Origin: Alicyclobacillus pomorum DSM 14955 | GTDB lineage: Bacteria; Bacillota; Bacilli; Alicyclobacillales; Alicyclobacillaceae | DNA length: 64,000 bases | Direction: 5' to 3' | Assembly: GCF_000472905.1 (NCBI RefSeq) | Contig: NZ_AXAR01000008.1 | Span: forward strand, 1-64,000 | In this document: piece after piece, positions 4,287 to 57,973 of the stretch | How the letters are laid out: every line of letters begins with the position of its first letter | Numbering within the stretch: position 1 is the stretch's first letter | Made by a program: the position numbers and the translations under genes | The notes under the pieces: model-generated | Told to the model about the DNA's origin: nothing | What the model saw: only the letters and a program-made list of their open reading frames with translations | The model's database searches: none

Positions 4287-4321
4287 TTCAATCAAGTCTG
4301 TGTCGTTGGGCATAAAACCGC

Positions 4322-4447
4322 TCTCCTCTCTTAAACGCTTACGAAGTTAGCTGTCGGGTTTGGGATTAAGAGATTTCCCTACCAGTCAGCTAGACTGGAT
4401 TCACCCCCAAGATTGGTTCCCCCGTTCCCTTTCGGGATTCAGCGCAA
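4322..4447 (-). promoter_or_regulatory. c-di-AMP riboswitch (ydaO-yuaA type)
   Basis: Read on the minus strand, the segment carries the conserved blocks of this class in order: GAATCCC, GGGAACGGGGGAACC, GGGGGTGAATCC, GGTAGGGAA, AACCCGACAGCTAACTTCGTAAGC and then AGAGAGGAG. In known members, c-di-AMP binding favours termination, and the genes controlled concern wall hydrolases, potassium or osmolyte transport. Here an intrinsic terminator follows directly and the next gene is a 53-residue ORF of unknown function. Confidence 0.88.
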
Positions 4448-4727
4448 CACGATATTCAGTTTCGTAAAGTGTAGCTCGTCCATCACGAAACATCAAAGAT
4501 TGAATTGTATAGAAAATGCGAGGATACAGCCGAATTTCGCAGGAAAGAACGGCACATTTGACCTATACGTGAATGACCCACACCCAATATTCGCCGATTC
4601 TCCCCTCCGATTCATGCGGTTTGACAAAGAAAATACTGAGTATTACGATCATTCAAGTAATACTACTGATAATCATCATAGATAGGTCTCGAAAGGATGA
4701 TCCCCTCTGATTACACCCTTAACTCCT

Positions 4728-6584: not shown

Positions 6585-6706
6585 GAATGAGAAGGTCCGA
6601 ATCGCAAGAACGGGGGACTCTTTGACGGGGTGAATCACAGCTTCTCGGCTGTGTAGGGAATCCTTCGCCCGAACCCGACAACTAACCTCGTAGGACTGTG
6701 AAGGAG
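6585..6706 (+). promoter_or_regulatory. c-di-AMP riboswitch before the NlpC/P60 gene
   Basis: Conserved blocks in order: GGTCCGAATC, GAACGGGGGAC, ACGGGGTGAATC, a GC hairpin, GTAGGGAA, CGAACCCGACAACTAACCTCGTAGG. Unlike the other copy at 4322-4447 there is no terminator between the aptamer and the gene. The 3' end of the aptamer region contains the AAGGAG ribosome binding site (6701-6706) of the following gene, so control at the level of translation is likely (inference). The regulated gene, a secreted wall hydrolase, is a classical target of this riboswitch class. Confidence 0.88.
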
Positions 6707-6715
6707 CGTGCCTGA

Positions 6716-28660: not shown

Positions 28661-28784
28661 CTAGCCAACCATCCGGTGTTGGACTACGAAATATGGGTGC
28701 GATGTTGACGCCCGTCGGGCCATATTCCCTCTTGACGCAGCTGTACACATACGGTAAAATTTTACTCAAACTTCACATCACAAT

Positions 28785-29023
28785 GGCTGAGATGGAGAGA
28801 GTACGGATTTGATTCAGCGTAGAGAGTCGGTGGTTGGTGCAAACCGACCTGAAGCAAATACCGGAAGTTCACTCCTGAGCCGCCAGGTGAACGCCCTTAG
28901 GGTTACTAGCCTGCGCCGGAAACCGTTCGATGTTTTCGTTATCTCAATGAAGTGAAGGCACATGCCTTCATGTAGGGTGGTACCGCGAGTTCAATCTCGT
29001 CCCTTGTGGGACGAGATTTTTTG
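28785..29023 (+). promoter_or_regulatory. T-box leader 1, Phe specifier
   Basis: Complete T-box: Stem I with AGTA at 28800-28803, specifier in GAA-G-TTC-A (TTC at 28868-28870, Phe), antiterminator motif AGGGTGGTACCGCG at 28974-28987, and terminator AATCTCGTCCC / GGGACGAGATT followed by TTTT ending about 29022. Uncharged tRNA-Phe should allow read-through. The specifier was assigned by matching the GAA-N-codon-A layout of well-studied T-boxes. Confidence 0.88.
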
Positions 29024-29095
29024 TTCAGCGACTTGTACATCGCGGCGCACAACGGGTTTACCACTTATTTCGCTGTCGCTGAATATACGAAAAGC

Positions 29096-29328
29096 GTTGA
29101 TGGAGAGAGTAGATGCCGCATTCAGTGCAGAGAGCCGGCGAATGGTGCGAGCCGGACTGAAAAAGCGTCGAAGTTCACTCCGGAGCTGTCAGGTGAACGC
29201 CTCCTAGGCCAGTAGTCTGTACCGGAAGCATCCCAGTGTTTCCGTTATCCCAACGAAGTGAAAGGCATTGACGCCTTGCATTAGGGTGGTACCACGAGAA
29301 CCTCGTCCCTATCTGGACGAGGTTTTGT
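29096..29328 (+). promoter_or_regulatory. T-box leader 2, Phe specifier
   Basis: Second complete T-box in tandem: AGTA near 29108, GATGC/GCGTC stem closing the specifier loop, specifier TTC at 29174-29176, motif AGGGTGGTACCACG at 29283-29296, and terminator ACCTCGTCC / GGACGAGGTTTTG. Same amino acid as T-box 1, but the helices differ in sequence, so this is an old duplication. Confidence 0.88.
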
Positions 29329-50864: not shown

Positions 50865-52904
50865 ATGCCTGACGTCAAGACTGGGGATAGCGTCCCCACG
50901 AGAAGTGTCGAGCTCAATATTGAAGGCATGACCTGTGCCGCCTGTGCAGCCCGCATTGAGAAAGTCGTTGGGCGGTTAAATGCCGTGAAGTCTGTGAACG
51001 TGAACCTCGCCTCAGAGAAAGCGCACATCACCTTTGTACCTGGCGATGTTCAGGAGTCGGATCTCATCCGCACCATTGAAAAAGCCGGCTATGGTGCGAA
51101 GTTGGCATCCCAAACGGCTGTAGAGGAGGAAAAACAACGCAAACAACGTGAGTACAAACGAGAGGTTATCAAGTTTTGGGCGTCCGTTGCGCTGACGGCC
51201 CCCCTGGTCATCCAGATGCTCTACATGCTGTTTGGCGGTATGGCCTTCATACCAAACTGGGTCAGTTGGTTCCTGGCGACCCCCGTTCAATTCTACATTG
51301 GGTGGCGCTTCTACAAAGGGGCTTACCACGCCCTGCGGGGCGGCACTGCAAACATGGATGTATTGGTCACTCTAGGCACTTCTATGGCGTACGCATACAG
51401 CGCCATTCTGACCGCGCAAGGCAAGCCGGACGTTTACTTTGATAGTTCGGCGACCGTTGTGACACTGATTTTCATGGGCAAGCTGCTTGAAGCCAAGGCC
51501 AAAGCCAAATCAAGTTCTGCTATCGAAGCACTTGCGAAACTCGGTGCCAAAGCGGCACATGTGCTCCGTGACGGCAAAGAAATAGATGTTCCTGTGGAAC
51601 AACTGCGTGTTGGCGACGTGGTCCGGGTTCGACCGGGGGAAAAAGTCCCCAGCGATGGCGTTGTCAAAGAAGGTAGCACGACGATTGATGAGTCCTTCCT
51701 GACAGGCGAGCCATCGCCCGTTTCAAAAAGCCCTGGAGACCCAGTAGTAGGTGCTTCTGTAAATCAGACCCGTACATTCACCATGGAAATCACCAAGGTT
51801 GGTGCAGACACGGCGCTGGCTCAGGTTATTCGATGGGTGGACCAAGCGCAAGGTTCAAAGGCCCCCGTTCAACGTCTGGCAGACAGAATCTCAGGTATCT
51901 TTGTTCCCATTGTACTTGTGGCTGCTCTCGTGACTTTGCTGCTCTGGGGCGTATTCAATGGCTGGTCACACGGCCTCATGGCGGCCGTGGCCGTCCTTGT
52001 CATCGCCTGTCCTTGTTCTCTCGGACTCGCAACGCCGACTGCAATCATGGTCGGAACAGGACTGGGTGCTGAGTCAGGCATATTAGTGAAAGGTGGCGAG
52101 CACCTTGAGCTGGCTCATCAAGTGAATGCTGTGGTTTTTGACAAGACTGGAACCCTCACATCCGGAAAACCGCAAGTGACCGATATTTGGACCGAAACAG
52201 GCGTCACGGAACAACACCTCATGGCAGTCGCGGCTGCCCTTGAATCGCAAAGTGATCATCCGCTCGGAATGGCCGTTGTCAATGACGCCAAAGGACAAGG
52301 CATCCCCATTCCATCCGCCACGGACGTCGAAGCGGTACCAGGCAAGGGGATTGTCGGATGGGTGAACGGCACGAAAGTGCAAATTGGCAATCGCCGTTGG
52401 TTGACGGAGTCTGGTATCCCTTCGTGCCGGACGACGTATTGACGGACTTCGAGGATGCAGGAAAGACAGCGGTGATGGTTGCCGCAGATAACCGGGTGCT
52501 TGGCGTCATTGCCATCGCTGACACGATGAAGGCTGGTTCGAAAGATGCGGATGGTCGGTGCCGGGATCAACGATGCGCCTGCCTTGGCGGCAGCAGATAT
52601 CGGGATGGCCATGGGGACGGGGGCTGATGTCGCGCTGGAAGCGGCGGACATCGCGCTCATGCACAGTGATCCCAGGGGCGTTGTAGATGCCATTCGGTTG
52701 TCGAAGTCCACCATGCGAAAGATTCGTCAAAACCTGTTTTGGGCCTTCTTCTACAATGTACTCGGTATCCCATTGGCCGCGTTCGGGATTTTGAGCCCGA
52801 TTATCGCAGGTGCGGCGATGGCGCTCAGTTCAGTGAGCGTCGTATCCAACAGCTTGCTCCTCCGTCGTCTGAAACTCGGAAGGGAAGTGCATGCTGAGCC
52901 ATAG
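50865..52904 (+). pseudogene. copA: Copper-exporting P-type ATPase, broken by a frameshift and a deletion
   Basis: The 5' part is intact from ATG 50865 (AAGGAGGTG upstream): heavy-metal domain [16 protein letters not shown] phosphatase loop, [11 protein letters not shown], phosphorylation motif [12 protein letters not shown]. At about 52420 one base is missing in CCCTTCG, shifting the frame to a stop at 52442. The homology continues in the second frame to GSKDA (about 52550), then jumps directly to [15 protein letters not shown] in the first frame, so about 60 residues including the TGDN motif are deleted. The invariant GDGIND is GAGIND. Two independent lesions and a motif mutation argue for real decay. 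Confidence 0.9.
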
Positions 52905-54025: not shown

Positions 54026-55438
54026 TCAGTATACCCCTGGTGCGGTGATGGCGTAGTTCGTCGTATCGGATGGATACCACTGAACCGAAACGCTCGGATG
54101 AACCCCATCGCTTGGATGACGCTGAACAAGGTCGGTCGGAATGGACTTGTCACCGATTTCGATGACAGTACCATCCGGATTCGATGTGTAGAATGTCAAA
54201 CCACGAATCTCATCCAAAGTCGGGACGTGTATCCCAAACACAGGGTCGTCAATCGACAGGATGTGGATGAAGGCCTTACCGTCTACATGCGTTACCTTGT
54301 ACTTCACATACTGCTGTGCCACATTGTATTGAAGCAATCTACTCGTTCGCGCCACCAATATGCTTCCATGATGGTACTCACGCGCCAAGAGCTTCAATCC
54401 CCGAATGGATTCCTCAGGCAGCGGGAACTGGCTGACGCCTCCGTTCAGGTGCTGCGCCACAATGGAGTACTGATGCCGTTTTTCAATGTCGTGAAGATGT
54501 GCGGGCGTTAACTGTCTCCAAATCTGCCATACGGTCCAATCCCATAGTGGCCCCCCCTTACTGTTATACCCGTAGCTCGTATGGCGTGAAAACCCCCATA
54601 CACGCCGTCCATCAGGCAAGCGAAGTGGATATATCATGGAGTTCATGCCAAACATCTCACTCGAGTTGTCTGCCCAAACAAATCGTACGCCATATGGGAT
54701 GGTGAAATCCGTGTGGTAGTACGGTGAGGTAGAGTTTGCACCTTGTTGATAGTTAAAAAACGGCGCAATCCCGTATGATCCAAAGTTGTCGACGTTTGAC
54801 TTGTTACCGTGGTCTGTCCAAACCGTAATATGATCCCCAGCCTGTTTCAAAGCCTCAATGCCCTGTTGGGCGAGTCTACGTGTAAACCGTGTCTTCGTTT
54901 GATCCACCTGGCTGAAGTCGCCAAACGTGTGTATGGTGTCAATCCAGCCGGCGTGAATGTAACGGTGAATCACCGCAGCACCGTACGGCTGGTTCGTCAC
55001 GCCCTGAAAGTACGACAGTTCGTGAGACATGGGCTGATGGTGGATGTCTACATATCCATGCTGATTGTTTGCGTTGTACATAAAGAAGGAATCCGCGAAG
55101 TCGAGACCAAGACCGCGGCCCGCTGGTGTCATTTCCCTCGTATTGATGAACTGATGGACAAGGTTAAATTTACGTAGTGTTTCACTGTCTGCGTCGGATG
55201 AGAGGGCGAGCATGGCCTGATACGGATAGGGAAACTTGCGCATACCGTATACCTGCGGCACTTTGCTCATATCGTACGTCGCCGCCCCTAGCGGTTCGGC
55301 AGCGCGCGGTACCTTTTTCTGATGGACGACGCCTTTTGCAGATGGTTTGGGTTTATCGGTCCGTGTGTCACAGCCAAACAAGGCGGTTATCGTCCCGAAT
55401 GTCAGCATGATGCCGAGAAGCGCTCGATACCAAGGCAC
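54026..55438 (-). CDS. Large lipoprotein of unknown function
   Basis: A 470-residue protein started at GTG 55438, 9 bases after GGGAGG. Lipobox TALFGC (Cys at about residue 23) shows it is anchored outside the membrane. The body has KFPYPYQAMLALSSDADS, TVWTDHGNKSNVDNFGS and GGVSQFPLPEES. The opening strand with SSDAD and the TDHG histidine recall polysaccharide deacetylase-like barrels with metal-binding Asp and His, but this is a guess. It stands alone between the membrane protein and the Nramp gene. Confidence 0.75.
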   Translation of the reverse strand: MPWYRALLGIMLTFGTITALFGCDTRTDKPKPSAKGVVHQKKVPRAAEPLGAATYDMSKVPQVYGMRKFPYPYQAMLALSSDADSETLRKFNLVHQFINTREMTPAGRGLGLDFADSFFMYNANNQHGYVDIHHQPMSHELSYFQGVTNQPYGAAVIHRYIHAGWIDTIHTFGDFSQVDQTKTRFTRRLAQQGIEALKQAGDHITVWTDHGNKSNVDNFGSYGIAPFFNYQQGANSTSPYYHTDFTIPYGVRFVWADNSSEMFGMNSMIYPLRLPDGRRVWGFSRHTSYGYNSKGGPLWDWTVWQIWRQLTPAHLHDIEKRHQYSIVAQHLNGGVSQFPLPEESIRGLKLLAREYHHGSILVARTSRLLQYNVAQQYVKYKVTHVDGKAFIHILSIDDPVFGIHVPTLDEIRGLTFYTSNPDGTVIEIGDKSIPTDLVQRHPSDGVHPSVSVQWYPSDTTNYAITAPGVY

Positions 55439-55552
55439 AAAATACGACCTCCCAATTGCGTGACTTGTAGTTTGTCGGACATATTGTGCTTCACATCTGC
55501 GATTCCTTGCACCAAACCAACATTTCCCGGACTCACATGCGCGCCATGCGCC

Positions 55553-55639: not shown

Positions 55640-57259
55640 TCATCCCCCGATGGAAAGCTGTACAACCTTCACGACCAACATGATGACCGCAACAAGTAGG
55701 TACCCACGAAGCGCAATCATTCCTATCCGCTGCATGGGTGACCATTCGGGCTTTGGCAGCGTCGACAGTGGCGGCATTCGCCACGAATGACGATCCACCT
55801 CTGGATAGCTCCTGTCACTCTTTCCCTTGCGTCGATACCAGACGATTCCCCCTAACAACAACCCAATCACCATGACAACACCGGAGGTGATGCCTAGAAT
55901 CTGCACATTCACACCGGGAAAGAACGTCGTCACAGCCAAAATGAATGACAACATCACCAATACCCCGACAATGACACTGCTCACGAGGTTCAGCCATGGG
56001 CGATTGACCCACGGGCCGAGAACAGCTCTATCGTTACAAAGCAACAACAAAAAGACGGTTGCACTCGGGAGCAAAATCCCCGCCAAAGCCTGAACTGCGG
56101 TGGTTATCAGTCCAAGCGGTGCGTGCGGTATGACCACAATGCCCGCAGCAATCAAGATGACAGCGGAATACGCAACATAAAAGCCCGTTGCGTCTTTCAC
56201 CGAGCGGTGTAGTGAATGCTTCGTGCCAAACACATCTCCGAATGCATATGAAGTCGACAGCGTCACTGCTGCTGCACCAATCAAAGAAGCGTTCAGGAGG
56301 ACGATGGCAAACAAGTCTCCTGCCAATGTGCCAAGACACTGTGACAAGCCGGCTATCGCCGACCCAGCATCGACAAACTGGCCCTCGAACTTCGTCCCGT
56401 GAAACGCAAACGCGGTACTTGCCATGATGGCCGTTGCCCCAATCACGACCACAATGGAGCCGATGACAGTGTCGGCGCGTTCATACGACATCCAGCGAGG
56501 CGTGAGTCGTTTATCAATGACGTTGGATTGCTGAAAAAACAACTGCCACGGTGCCACAGTCGTTCCGACCATACTGATGATGAGCAGGAGTGCCTTGGAG
56601 GTCAGACCGCCTTGGACACCAGGTACCAAAAATCCATGCACAATGGCCCCGGCCTTCGGATGACTCATGAAGAAAAGAGGAATCACAAGAAAATTGGCTG
56701 CAACCATGGCATACATAAACCGTTCCCATCTCCGGAAACTCCCTGTGACCGTCATGGCCACCAGAAATACAGCTGCAGCAGCAACAGCCACCCACGGGTT
56801 GACGCCAAAGTGCTGAAGCGCCATACGGATGCCGATGAATTCCGTGACAATGGTGAGCAGATTCAAGATGAACAAGTCACCCACTGAAAATGCGCCCCAA
56901 AATTTCCCGAACCGTTCAAAGATCAGCCGTGCATGGCCAACGCCCGTGACTAATCCCAAACGAACGGCCATCTCCTGATTCACAATCAAAACAGGAATCA
57001 ACAGTAGCAACACCCACAACAGACTCGTTCCGAAGTTTTGTCCGGCTTGGGCATAGGTCGCCACGCCACCTGCGTCATTGTCGCCGACCATCACGATGAG
57101 GCCGGGGCCCATGATGGCAAGTAGTGTGAGGAACCGAGCCTTCCATGTCCTCCGAGGTGCCGTGTCATCCATACGCACGGTACCGAGAGCTCCTTGAATA
57201 TCACCGACGTGTGCGCTGTCCAAAGCCGTGTTATGTTCAATGAGTGCATGTTTGCTCAT
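55640..57259 (-). CDS. Nramp-related transporter, probably for magnesium (NRMT-like)
   Basis: A 539-residue protein with 11 or more helices of the Nramp (SLC11) fold. The metal site differs from MntH: the first helix has GDNDAGGVATYAQAG (Asp60 to Gly65) in place of DPGN, and the sixth has TTVAPWQ with Ala236 where manganese and iron transporters carry Met. These changes are those of the Nramp-related magnesium transporters. An M-box magnesium riboswitch with terminator lies upstream, strongly supporting magnesium import. ATG 57259 follows AAGGAGG with a 9-base spacer. Confidence 0.88.
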   Translation of the reverse strand: MSKHALIEHNTALDSAHVGDIQGALGTVRMDDTAPRRTWKARFLTLLAIMGPGLIVMVGDNDAGGVATYAQAGQNFGTSLLWVLLLLIPVLIVNQEMAVRLGLVTGVGHARLIFERFGKFWGAFSVGDLFILNLLTIVTEFIGIRMALQHFGVNPWVAVAAAAVFLVAMTVTGSFRRWERFMYAMVAANFLVIPLFFMSHPKAGAIVHGFLVPGVQGGLTSKALLLIISMVGTTVAPWQLFFQQSNVIDKRLTPRWMSYERADTVIGSIVVVIGATAIMASTAFAFHGTKFEGQFVDAGSAIAGLSQCLGTLAGDLFAIVLLNASLIGAAAVTLSTSYAFGDVFGTKHSLHRSVKDATGFYVAYSAVILIAAGIVVIPHAPLGLITTAVQALAGILLPSATVFLLLLCNDRAVLGPWVNRPWLNLVSSVIVGVLVMLSFILAVTTFFPGVNVQILGITSGVVMVIGLLLGGIVWYRRKGKSDRSYPEVDRHSWRMPPLSTLPKPEWSPMQRIGMIALRGYLLVAVIMLVVKVVQLSIGG

Positions 57260-57368
57260 GATAACAATCCTCCTTGAAGAAGAGATAGGAGGGACAGAAA
57301 TCCCCTTTTGTTTTCACCTGTAAGAGACAATCCACATTCCGTTGCTGACTACTAGGACCTATGTCCAC
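57237..57368 (-). CDS. Possible leader peptide between M-box terminator and transporter
   Basis: A 43-codon frame from GTG 57368 with a perfect AAGGAGGTGG at 57374-57383, located just past the M-box terminator. It is Cys-rich (four Cys) and ends 23 bases inside the transporter gene in another frame. The overlap would couple or hinder translation of the transporter. It could equally be a chance frame; only the strong binding site supports it. Confidence 0.35.
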   Translation of the reverse strand: MDIGPSSQQRNVDCLLQVKTKGDFCPSYLFFKEDCYHEQTCTH

Positions 57369-57391
57369 ACCTACCACCTCCTTCAAGGCCA

Positions 57392-57424
57392 AAGTAAAAC
57401 CCCCTGACGAAACATCAGGGGGGC
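57392..57424 (-). terminator. Terminator of the M-box riboswitch
   Basis: CCCCCTGA pairs with TCAGGGGG (57400-57407 with 57415-57422); on the minus strand TTTTAC follows. It is the expression platform of the M-box. Confidence 0.8.
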
Positions 57425-57467
57425 ACACTCTGCATATGAAAACACACGCAAAGAATTGTACATCCCC

Positions 57468-57622
57468 CTAGTTGAGCTTTAGCACTATGTGACGTAGAGT
57501 TTTCACTCAGCCACGTTGAGTAAAGCCTTAATCCGGCAGTACCTGTTCTACCCATTGGCGTCTTTCGACGTTTCCGGGCAGTGGCTTGTGTTCACATAGA
57601 CGCCTCGCCTAACGAGGACTGG
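57468..57622 (-). promoter_or_regulatory. M-box magnesium riboswitch (ykoK leader)
   Basis: On the minus strand the conserved blocks appear in order: CTCGTTAGGCGAGGC, GCCACTGCCCGGAAACGTCG, AAGACGCCAATGGGT, AACAGG, GCCGGATTAAGGCTTTACTC and GTGGCTGAGTG. High magnesium favours the aptamer and the downstream terminator. Confidence 0.93.
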
Positions 57623-57973
57623 TTGTATTCAATTTACTGGTATGCGATGTGACTTCTCGAAGTTCGAGGCGAATGCCTGCTTCTCGTCAAGAAATCAGCA
57701 ATTCCCAACGATTTCCCTGTACTTCGGAGCCATCAACCTGTCGATACAACGTTCCTTCTCGGGATGCAAGGAATGCCGTTCGTCTTCGTGATTATACACC
57801 AACTGCGTTCAGTGTTTCATTAACATTCGATGAGTTTTTGGTGAAACGTTGATGGCAAGCCGCATTGAACATGAATACGAGAGCGAAACGCAGTCTGCAC
57901 CATCGCACAGTGAAAACAAAGGAGCCCCACAACTGTGAGGGCCAAAATGGAGTTCATTGGCTCTACACGGTGT
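57623..57973. other. Upstream region of the M-box transcript
   Basis: No gene recognised. A minus-strand TATAAT at 57796-57791 could be the -10 box, but it lies about 170 bases before the aptamer. Confidence 0.3.

Follow-up and report, generated by a model that had tools for sequence, protein, structure and literature searches.

What does an Nramp-family gene import when a Mg2+ riboswitch stands in front of it, and why should the sequence between the riboswitch terminator and the gene be conserved? Both questions are raised by positions 55,640 to 57,622 of a 64,000-nucleotide stretch of Alicyclobacillus pomorum DSM 14955 (assembly GCF_000472905.1, contig NZ_AXAR01000008.1, positions 1 to 64,000 of the forward strand), which is referred to as the window. 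We propose that the product of this locus is an importer of Mg2+ belonging to the NRMTs (Nramp-related magnesium transporters) and that two Mg2+ sensors lie one after the other on the mRNA, the M-box aptamer and, behind its terminator, a short leader open reading frame (ORF); to this account as a whole we give a probability of roughly 0.6. The novelty of the locus lies mainly in the leader ORF and its pairing element, which a first-pass annotation of the same DNA had overlooked.

The riboswitch and the leader ORF

The elements of the leader are listed in the order of transcription.

57458..57623, minus strand: M-box (Mg2+ riboswitch) aptamer, RF00380, 154.5 bits, E 2.4e-35
57462..57471, minus strand: aptamer P1, 3' strand (CUAGGGGGAU), which doubles as antiterminator strand (computed duplex)
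57400..57422, minus strand: intrinsic terminator, stem-loop CCCCCTGATGTTTCGTCAGGGGG followed by a T-rich tail
57357..57386, minus strand: helix H, 5' strand, spanning the leader Shine-Dalgarno (SD) and start region (covariation)
57377..57383, minus strand: leader SD AAGGAGG (sequence; conserved)
57237..57368, minus strand: leader ORF, GTG start, 43 codons, (M)DIGPSSQQRNVDCLLQVKTKGDFCPSYLFFKEDCYHEQTCTH, stop TGA (conserved frame and N-terminus)
57274..57301, minus strand: helix H, 3' strand, ending against the transporter SD (covariation)
57269..57275, minus strand: transporter SD AAGGAGG (sequence)

The M-box match is full length and above the gathering score, with no non-standard pair flagged. 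M-boxes act as OFF switches, the terminator forming at high Mg2+ and an antiterminator allowing transcription to continue at low Mg2+. In this locus the 5' arm of the terminator is the complement of the P1 strand CUAGGGGGAU, which is conserved in 10 homologous leaders; computed energies are -14.2 kcal/mol for the antiterminator (P1 strand with terminator 5' arm), -10.5 for P1 and -18.2 for the terminator. The complementarity of this aptamer-closing strand and the computed energies fit the usual switch.

Between the terminator and the transporter, the leaders of homologues are unexpectedly conserved, and a previously unannotated ORF lies there. Its start region has a near-perfect SD (AAGGAGGTGGTAGGT GTG GAC ATA GGT CCT AGT ...), and its last 23 nt lie within the transporter gene, which is read in a different frame. 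The N-terminus M[DE]xGPS is conserved in Alicyclobacillales leaders; a search of 61 related genomes for the exact leader pattern gave 21 occurrences, and the reversed control gave none. For 31 Alicyclobacillales loci, whose leaders were picked by start motif, the distance from leader to transporter start is 1 mod 3 in every case, with 12 different values from 76 to 175 nt, and the leader frame is open up to the transporter start in 30 of the 31, as against 8 and 0 for the other two frames. The same offset is found in 34 of 35 loci of a larger set, and the start codon varies among ATG, GTG and TTG only. Judged by this conservation, the leader ORF is very probably translated. The near-constant offset raised the possibility of programmed +1 frameshifting out of the leader into the transporter, which was rejected because the position of the leader stop is not conserved.

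The peptide as a whole shows no such constraint: leaders are 28-75 codons long, and beyond the first five or six residues the sequence varies freely. This speaks against a functional small protein, for instance a regulator of the transporter as proposed for Mycobacterium tuberculosis Rv1805A, a reading that has a precedent in a conserved upstream ORF (uORF) without known role behind an M-box (PMC12810186) and that we consider highly improbable here. In Alicyclobacillus tolerans (L010, 2640-3003) the M-box and terminator are lost, according to a gathering-threshold scan and reading of the sequence, and the leader ORF is kept.

Two genomes carry altered arrangements. One copy in G314 (L120) has GTA in place of the leader start GTG. 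In G316 the M-box lies at one contig end (L190) and the leader with its transporter at another (L121/L218; contigs C59 and C100); a group II intron match is present at the second of these ends, and an intron has probably been inserted between terminator and leader.

A helix between the two ribosome-binding sites

Helix H sequesters the leader ribosome-binding site, and in most loci its 3' segment stops 11-18 nt short of the transporter start. The pairing is specific to cognate strands, which sum to -636.9 compared with -495.9 (standard deviation 18.2) for permuted ones, none of 20,000 permutations being as good. In alignment A3, 79.9% of the helix H cells are paired, compared with 46-55% in slid controls, and 31 cells are changed on both sides, compared with 13.3 in shuffles (0/500); alignment A4, fitted to the covariance model, is consistent with A3. 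The covariance model matches the leaders of the window-type genes (group W) and of group B42, the next subclade (about 42% identity, DAGG-TTIAPW), and none of the included loci of other types. Over 398 Bacillota genomes it found the window's own genome and one marginal match (G151, E 0.008), located downstream of an M-box with terminator and upstream of a corA gene; its sequence encodes MDDPYPAQFF.... Pairing of a CCUCC anti-SD with the transporter SD was ruled out as the conserved switch, the anti-SD being missing in L009 and L010, where helix H is kept.

Acidic leaders behind other Bacillota M-boxes

The marginal match in G151 led to a survey of Bacillota M-boxes from many families. In the 330 nt following each aptamer, ORFs were chosen by the strength of their SD, ATG starts receiving a slight bonus and the peptide being disregarded; a first rule, taking the first start after an SD, chose out-of-frame starts in several loci and was replaced by this SD-energy rule. 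Asp or Glu occupies position 2 in 41 of the 55 distinct strong-SD ORFs of the first set, compared with 0/9 antisense, 6/100 shuffled and 1/38 downstream controls, and an acidic residue 2 followed by Pro at positions 3-7 is found in 29/55 M-box leaders and in none of the 147 controls. A second set of 20 M-boxes, fetched afterwards, gave Asp or Glu at position 2 in 9/15. With both sets combined the count is 48/68 against 7/147 (Fisher p 3e-24, a value that overstates independence on account of shared ancestry).

Such leaders precede several classes of transporter gene, as labelled by short motifs, position and reading rather than by full annotation. Those before corA begin MDDPYPGH, MEDPYPGY, MDDPDADL and MDDPEADL; those before mgtE or mgtE-like genes begin MDADPDDL, MDPDPGSS, MDHPDSRH and MDSPHSSM, the last two at mgtE-type loci of Bacilli (L258, L290); one before a P-type ATPase-like gene begins MDDGGNSM; and operons leading to NRMT genes of the clade of EleNRMT, a characterised member, have MDSGPSPE, MDSGPYSH, MDAGPSGN and MDSGPVSR. 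Acidic, proline-containing leaders with a strong SD, found at L220-L309 in other Bacillota, are thus not confined to the window's family.

Could the conserved stretch be RNA structure only, an ordinary NRMT lying under an ordinary M-box and the reading frame being a by-product of helix H? The helix is strongly supported, and it spans the leader SD, the start codon and codon 2, so that the need to pair could be what preserves the GGA of codon 2. Pairing between the leader SD region and downstream sequence is also common in other Bacillota leaders (25 of 39 with z below -2). However, a helix demands neither a constant frame (31/31) nor an open one (30/31), and the ORF survives in L010 without an M-box. 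Asp or Glu with Pro also recurs in M-box leaders that have no significant predicted pairing (e.g. L229, L236, L252 and L254); the MD or ME start of several such leaders speaks against pairing as the sole cause of the acidic residue. An RNA-only origin of the conservation is therefore unlikely. Comparative evidence establishes the M-box, the terminator, the ion-site residues and family of the transporter, the leader and its frame, helix H and, as a feature of M-box leaders as a class, the acidic N-terminus.

The transporter and its substrate

The gene downstream has the following parts.

55640..57259, minus strand: NRMT-type Mg2+ transporter gene, 539 aa, ATG start
57065..57076, minus strand: ion site, helix 1, codons 62-65 (DAGG)
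56546..56563, minus strand: ion site, helix 6, codons 233-238 (TTVAPW)
55640..55906, minus strand: C-terminal extension, residues 452-539 (AlphaFold2 model; PDB alignment stops at residue 443)

The product belongs to Pfam Nramp (E 4e-80), and the first-pass annotation was right to see an Nramp-family gene under an M-box with terminator (RF00380, 154.5 bits; terminator stem 57422-57400). It had also expected routine annotation to call a manganese or divalent metal transporter, and such annotation would be vague: among NCBIfam models only NF037982, 'Nramp family divalent metal transporter', passed, and the MntH cut-off was missed (121 vs 430 bits). The MntH site, DPGN with A-x-x-M-P-H, is absent. 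Helix 1 has D62-A63-G64-G65 for DPGN, and helix 6 (TTVAPW) has A236 for the MntH Met, both as the earlier reading held; to these we add Thr for Ala at 233 and the loss of both MntH His residues, replaced by W238 and Q243, with Glu140 retained. The pair DAGG/TTVA agrees with the DxxG-TxxA/T pattern of NRMTs, as opposed to DxxN-A/CxxM; DxxG-TxxA/T is the consensus of the EleNRMT clade (PMC8806188). The DAGG/TTVAPW site is common to all 93 relatives in the protein's group.

EleNRMT is the top PDB relative both by sequence (E 8e-56; runner-up 6e-23) and by predicted fold (Foldseek TMt 0.88; AlphaFold2 model, pLDDT 86.8). The model places two further long helices, absent from EleNRMT, in the C-terminal extension (452-480 and 508-537). 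In a maximum-likelihood tree of 67 proteins, CabNRMT not among them, the NRMT side including the window protein is split from MntH, the two of the window genome included, with support 100/99. Within it the EleNRMT clade (100/99) is sister to the clade of the window protein (99/97), whose own group has 100/100; that clade also includes members that retain the MntH-like Ala/Met pair. The first-pass reading overreached here, as the protein belongs to the sister clade and not to the EleNRMT clade itself. With its NRMT site the window protein probably works like an NRMT, though outside the clade of the characterised EleNRMT.

M-box, site motif, tree and fold all give good support to the assignment to the NRMT kind, and Mg2+ is very probably the main substrate. 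The exclusion of Mn2+, the other half of the first-pass claim, does not follow from the assignment and is unproven: EleNRMT carries Mn2+ (Km about 120 uM) besides Mg2+ (PMC8806188), and the NrmT of A. capsulatum, encoded without an M-box, acted mainly as a Mn2+ transporter, rescuing Mn2+ uptake better than Mg2+ uptake (PMC4072509). These two cases, together with the Ala/Met pair retained in the related subclade, are what favours an importer chiefly of Mn2+ or another divalent metal in vivo. We judge this very unlikely, since the A. capsulatum gene lacks an M-box whereas the C. acetobutylicum NrmT genes that have one served Mg2+ transport (PMC4072509), the window genome already has two canonical MntH, and the ion site has no soft Met ligand. 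It has been argued that the M-box can help pick out the Mg2+ members among NrmT proteins (PMC4072509), and as such a marker it favours Mg2+ for the window protein.

A proposed double Mg2+ sensor

M-box leaders resemble the MgtL and MgtQ leaders in composition, place and company, and on this likeness a second, translational Mg2+ sensor is proposed. At high Mg2+ the aptamer would keep the P1 strand, the terminator would form and transcription would stop; at low Mg2+ the P1 strand would pair with the terminator 5' arm and transcription would continue. On the completed transcript, the leader ribosome-binding site would be held in helix H, whose other strand ends against that of the transporter. 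At low Mg2+, leader ribosomes may be destabilised within the first codons and presumably drop off, which would leave the transporter start free; with sufficient Mg2+ they would translate past the helix strand and across the transporter start, repressing translation of the transporter. Mg2+-dependent destabilisation on the leader has, by analogy, about an even chance of being correct, and the sign of the effect, in which aborted leader translation would favour the transporter, we infer from MgtL and MgtQ.

Several observations weigh against this account. Of the first six residues of the window leader only Asp2 is acidic and only Pro5 is a proline; MgtL has more of both, so that ribosomes may be destabilised only weakly, if at all, on the window leader. 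Helix H may also account for part of the N-terminal conservation. Among leaders from outside the Alicyclobacillales the ORF ends before the transporter start in 27 of 39, and occlusion by overlap therefore cannot be the general mode. Two window-type genes are without a complete M-box (L010, and L121 at a contig end), and the window protein falls outside the EleNRMT clade.

A simpler arrangement would have the leader translated and coupled to the transporter via the helix, the M-box being the sole sensor. Coupling leaders that sense no ligand are common, the window-group leader overlaps the transporter start, and the two SDs flank the helix. Coupling by itself leaves unexplained the acidic and proline-containing N-termini of the M-box leaders before corA, mgtE-like, P-type ATPase-like and NRMT genes, and we regard it as rather unlikely. 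Extended beyond the window, the double-sensor proposal would make Firmicutes M-boxes in general act twice, in transcription through aptamer and terminator and in translation through an acidic, proline-containing leader, for several transporter classes; this wider form is tentative, at slightly less than even odds.

Genome and family context

The window genome has four Nramp paralogues: two canonical MntH (DPGN/ATVMPH), one with DAGC/AVIMPW, and the window protein. It also has two CorA, no match to MgtE or MgtE_N, and only two M-boxes, one upstream of the window gene and the other upstream of a corA. In related Alicyclobacillales an M-box lies upstream of nearly all group W and group B42 genes; at the tested genes of the DAGS/DAGC-AVIM and DAPS-ATxT types no M-box was found. 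A minority of the wider W group (Actinomycetota and others) have one (L013, L033, L035, L037 and L076).

Proteins with DAGC or DAGS in helix 1 and AVIMPW in helix 6 stand on the NRMT side of the tree (L004, in the window's own genome at G000:C10:32644-33657, L147-L152 and L160-L162). No M-box was found at these genes, and the proteins may have reverted to transition-metal transport. Other Nramp-like site types, likewise undescribed, are DAPS-AT(I/V)TPW (L153-L156, L115), DAGG-NAIAPW (L157, L158) and GPGT/GTGT-TTVVPY, the last without the universal Asp (L116, L163, L164, L166). G314 has ten window-type transporter matches in all, several extra copies being fragmented or stop-containing (G314:C2:69591-81678; G314:C1:797743-798861).

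Other features of the window

Directly downstream of the transporter gene is a lipoprotein-like ORF without a Pfam match (54029-55447, minus strand), which could share the transporter transcript. A copper-type P-type ATPase gene (50865-52904, plus strand) is split into two ORFs (50865-52442 and 52545-52904) by a frameshift, as a broken gene or through sequence error. Tandem T-box leaders lie on the plus strand at 28780-29007 and 29088-29313, and two cyclic di-AMP riboswitches on opposite strands, about 2.1 kb apart, at 4321-4454 (minus) and 6585-6711 (plus).

Comparison with known systems

As a transporter, the window protein shares with EleNRMT and CabNRMT the DxxG-TxxA ion site, the loss of both His, the helix 3 Glu and the 11-helix core (PMC8806188, PMC4072509), and its gene shares M-box control with clostridial NRMT genes. 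It differs from EleNRMT, to which it is 33% identical, in belonging to the sister clade, in being about 90 residues longer and in its two extra helices. Unlike many NRMTs it has no MgtE-like partner gene in its genome (no MgtE_N match), a feature that is not required.

MgtL, upstream of mgtA in enteric bacteria, is likewise encoded by a short ORF that precedes a Mg2+ transporter gene, and its first five codons specify acidic residues and prolines (Glu2, Pro3, Asp4, Pro5); this EPDP sequence destabilises the ribosome at low Mg2+ (PMC11282234, PMC11552253). MgtL works via Rho-dependent termination and without an M-box, whereas the window leader lies behind an M-box terminator, and M-box leaders are next to, or over, the transporter start. 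The mgtQ leader before mgtB has a strong SD, Asp2, a Pro, alternative stems involving the ORF and the transporter ribosome-binding site, and translational control; in MgtQ it is Asp2 and Glu5 that destabilise the ribosome (PMC8092293). It differs in having 8 codons, in lying within an operon without an M-box, and in that its Pro acts through an RNA stem and not as a residue.

The closest published parallel, an M-box followed by a conserved uORF, is the pe20 leader of M. tuberculosis, where uORF2 (Rv1805A) is a conserved small ORF behind the M-box with an SD / anti-SD / SD layout (PMC12810186). That leader is Rho-dependent, without an intrinsic terminator, and its peptide, called mycobacteria-specific, has a conserved Pro at position 7. 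The report mentions neither MgtL nor ribosome destabilisation and proposes no acidic-leader mechanism. Homology of the window leader to Rv1805A was rejected, no likeness being seen in the small ORF behind the L079 M-box, which was compared instead of Rv1805A itself. A search of the open-access literature, subscription papers lying outside it, found no report of acidic leaders behind M-boxes.

Two ways of sensing Mg2+, through an ion-binding riboswitch and through a leader peptide on which ribosomes come apart at low Mg2+, were previously known from different bacteria. Here parts of both principles occur on one mRNA, in many Firmicutes and before several transporter classes, in leaders hitherto treated as transcription switches. 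If the proposal is true, reporter measurements on M-box constructs containing the leader need to be reinterpreted, and sensing of the MgtL type either arose repeatedly or far predates the enteric bacteria. Within the Nramp family, an M-box together with an MDxGP leader would offer a sequence criterion separating Mg2+ from Mn2+ carriers. With the M-box (ykoK) riboswitch and its terminator the window shares the full aptamer, the terminator and the antiterminator strand, and it differs in the conserved leader ORF and pairing element that follow the terminator.
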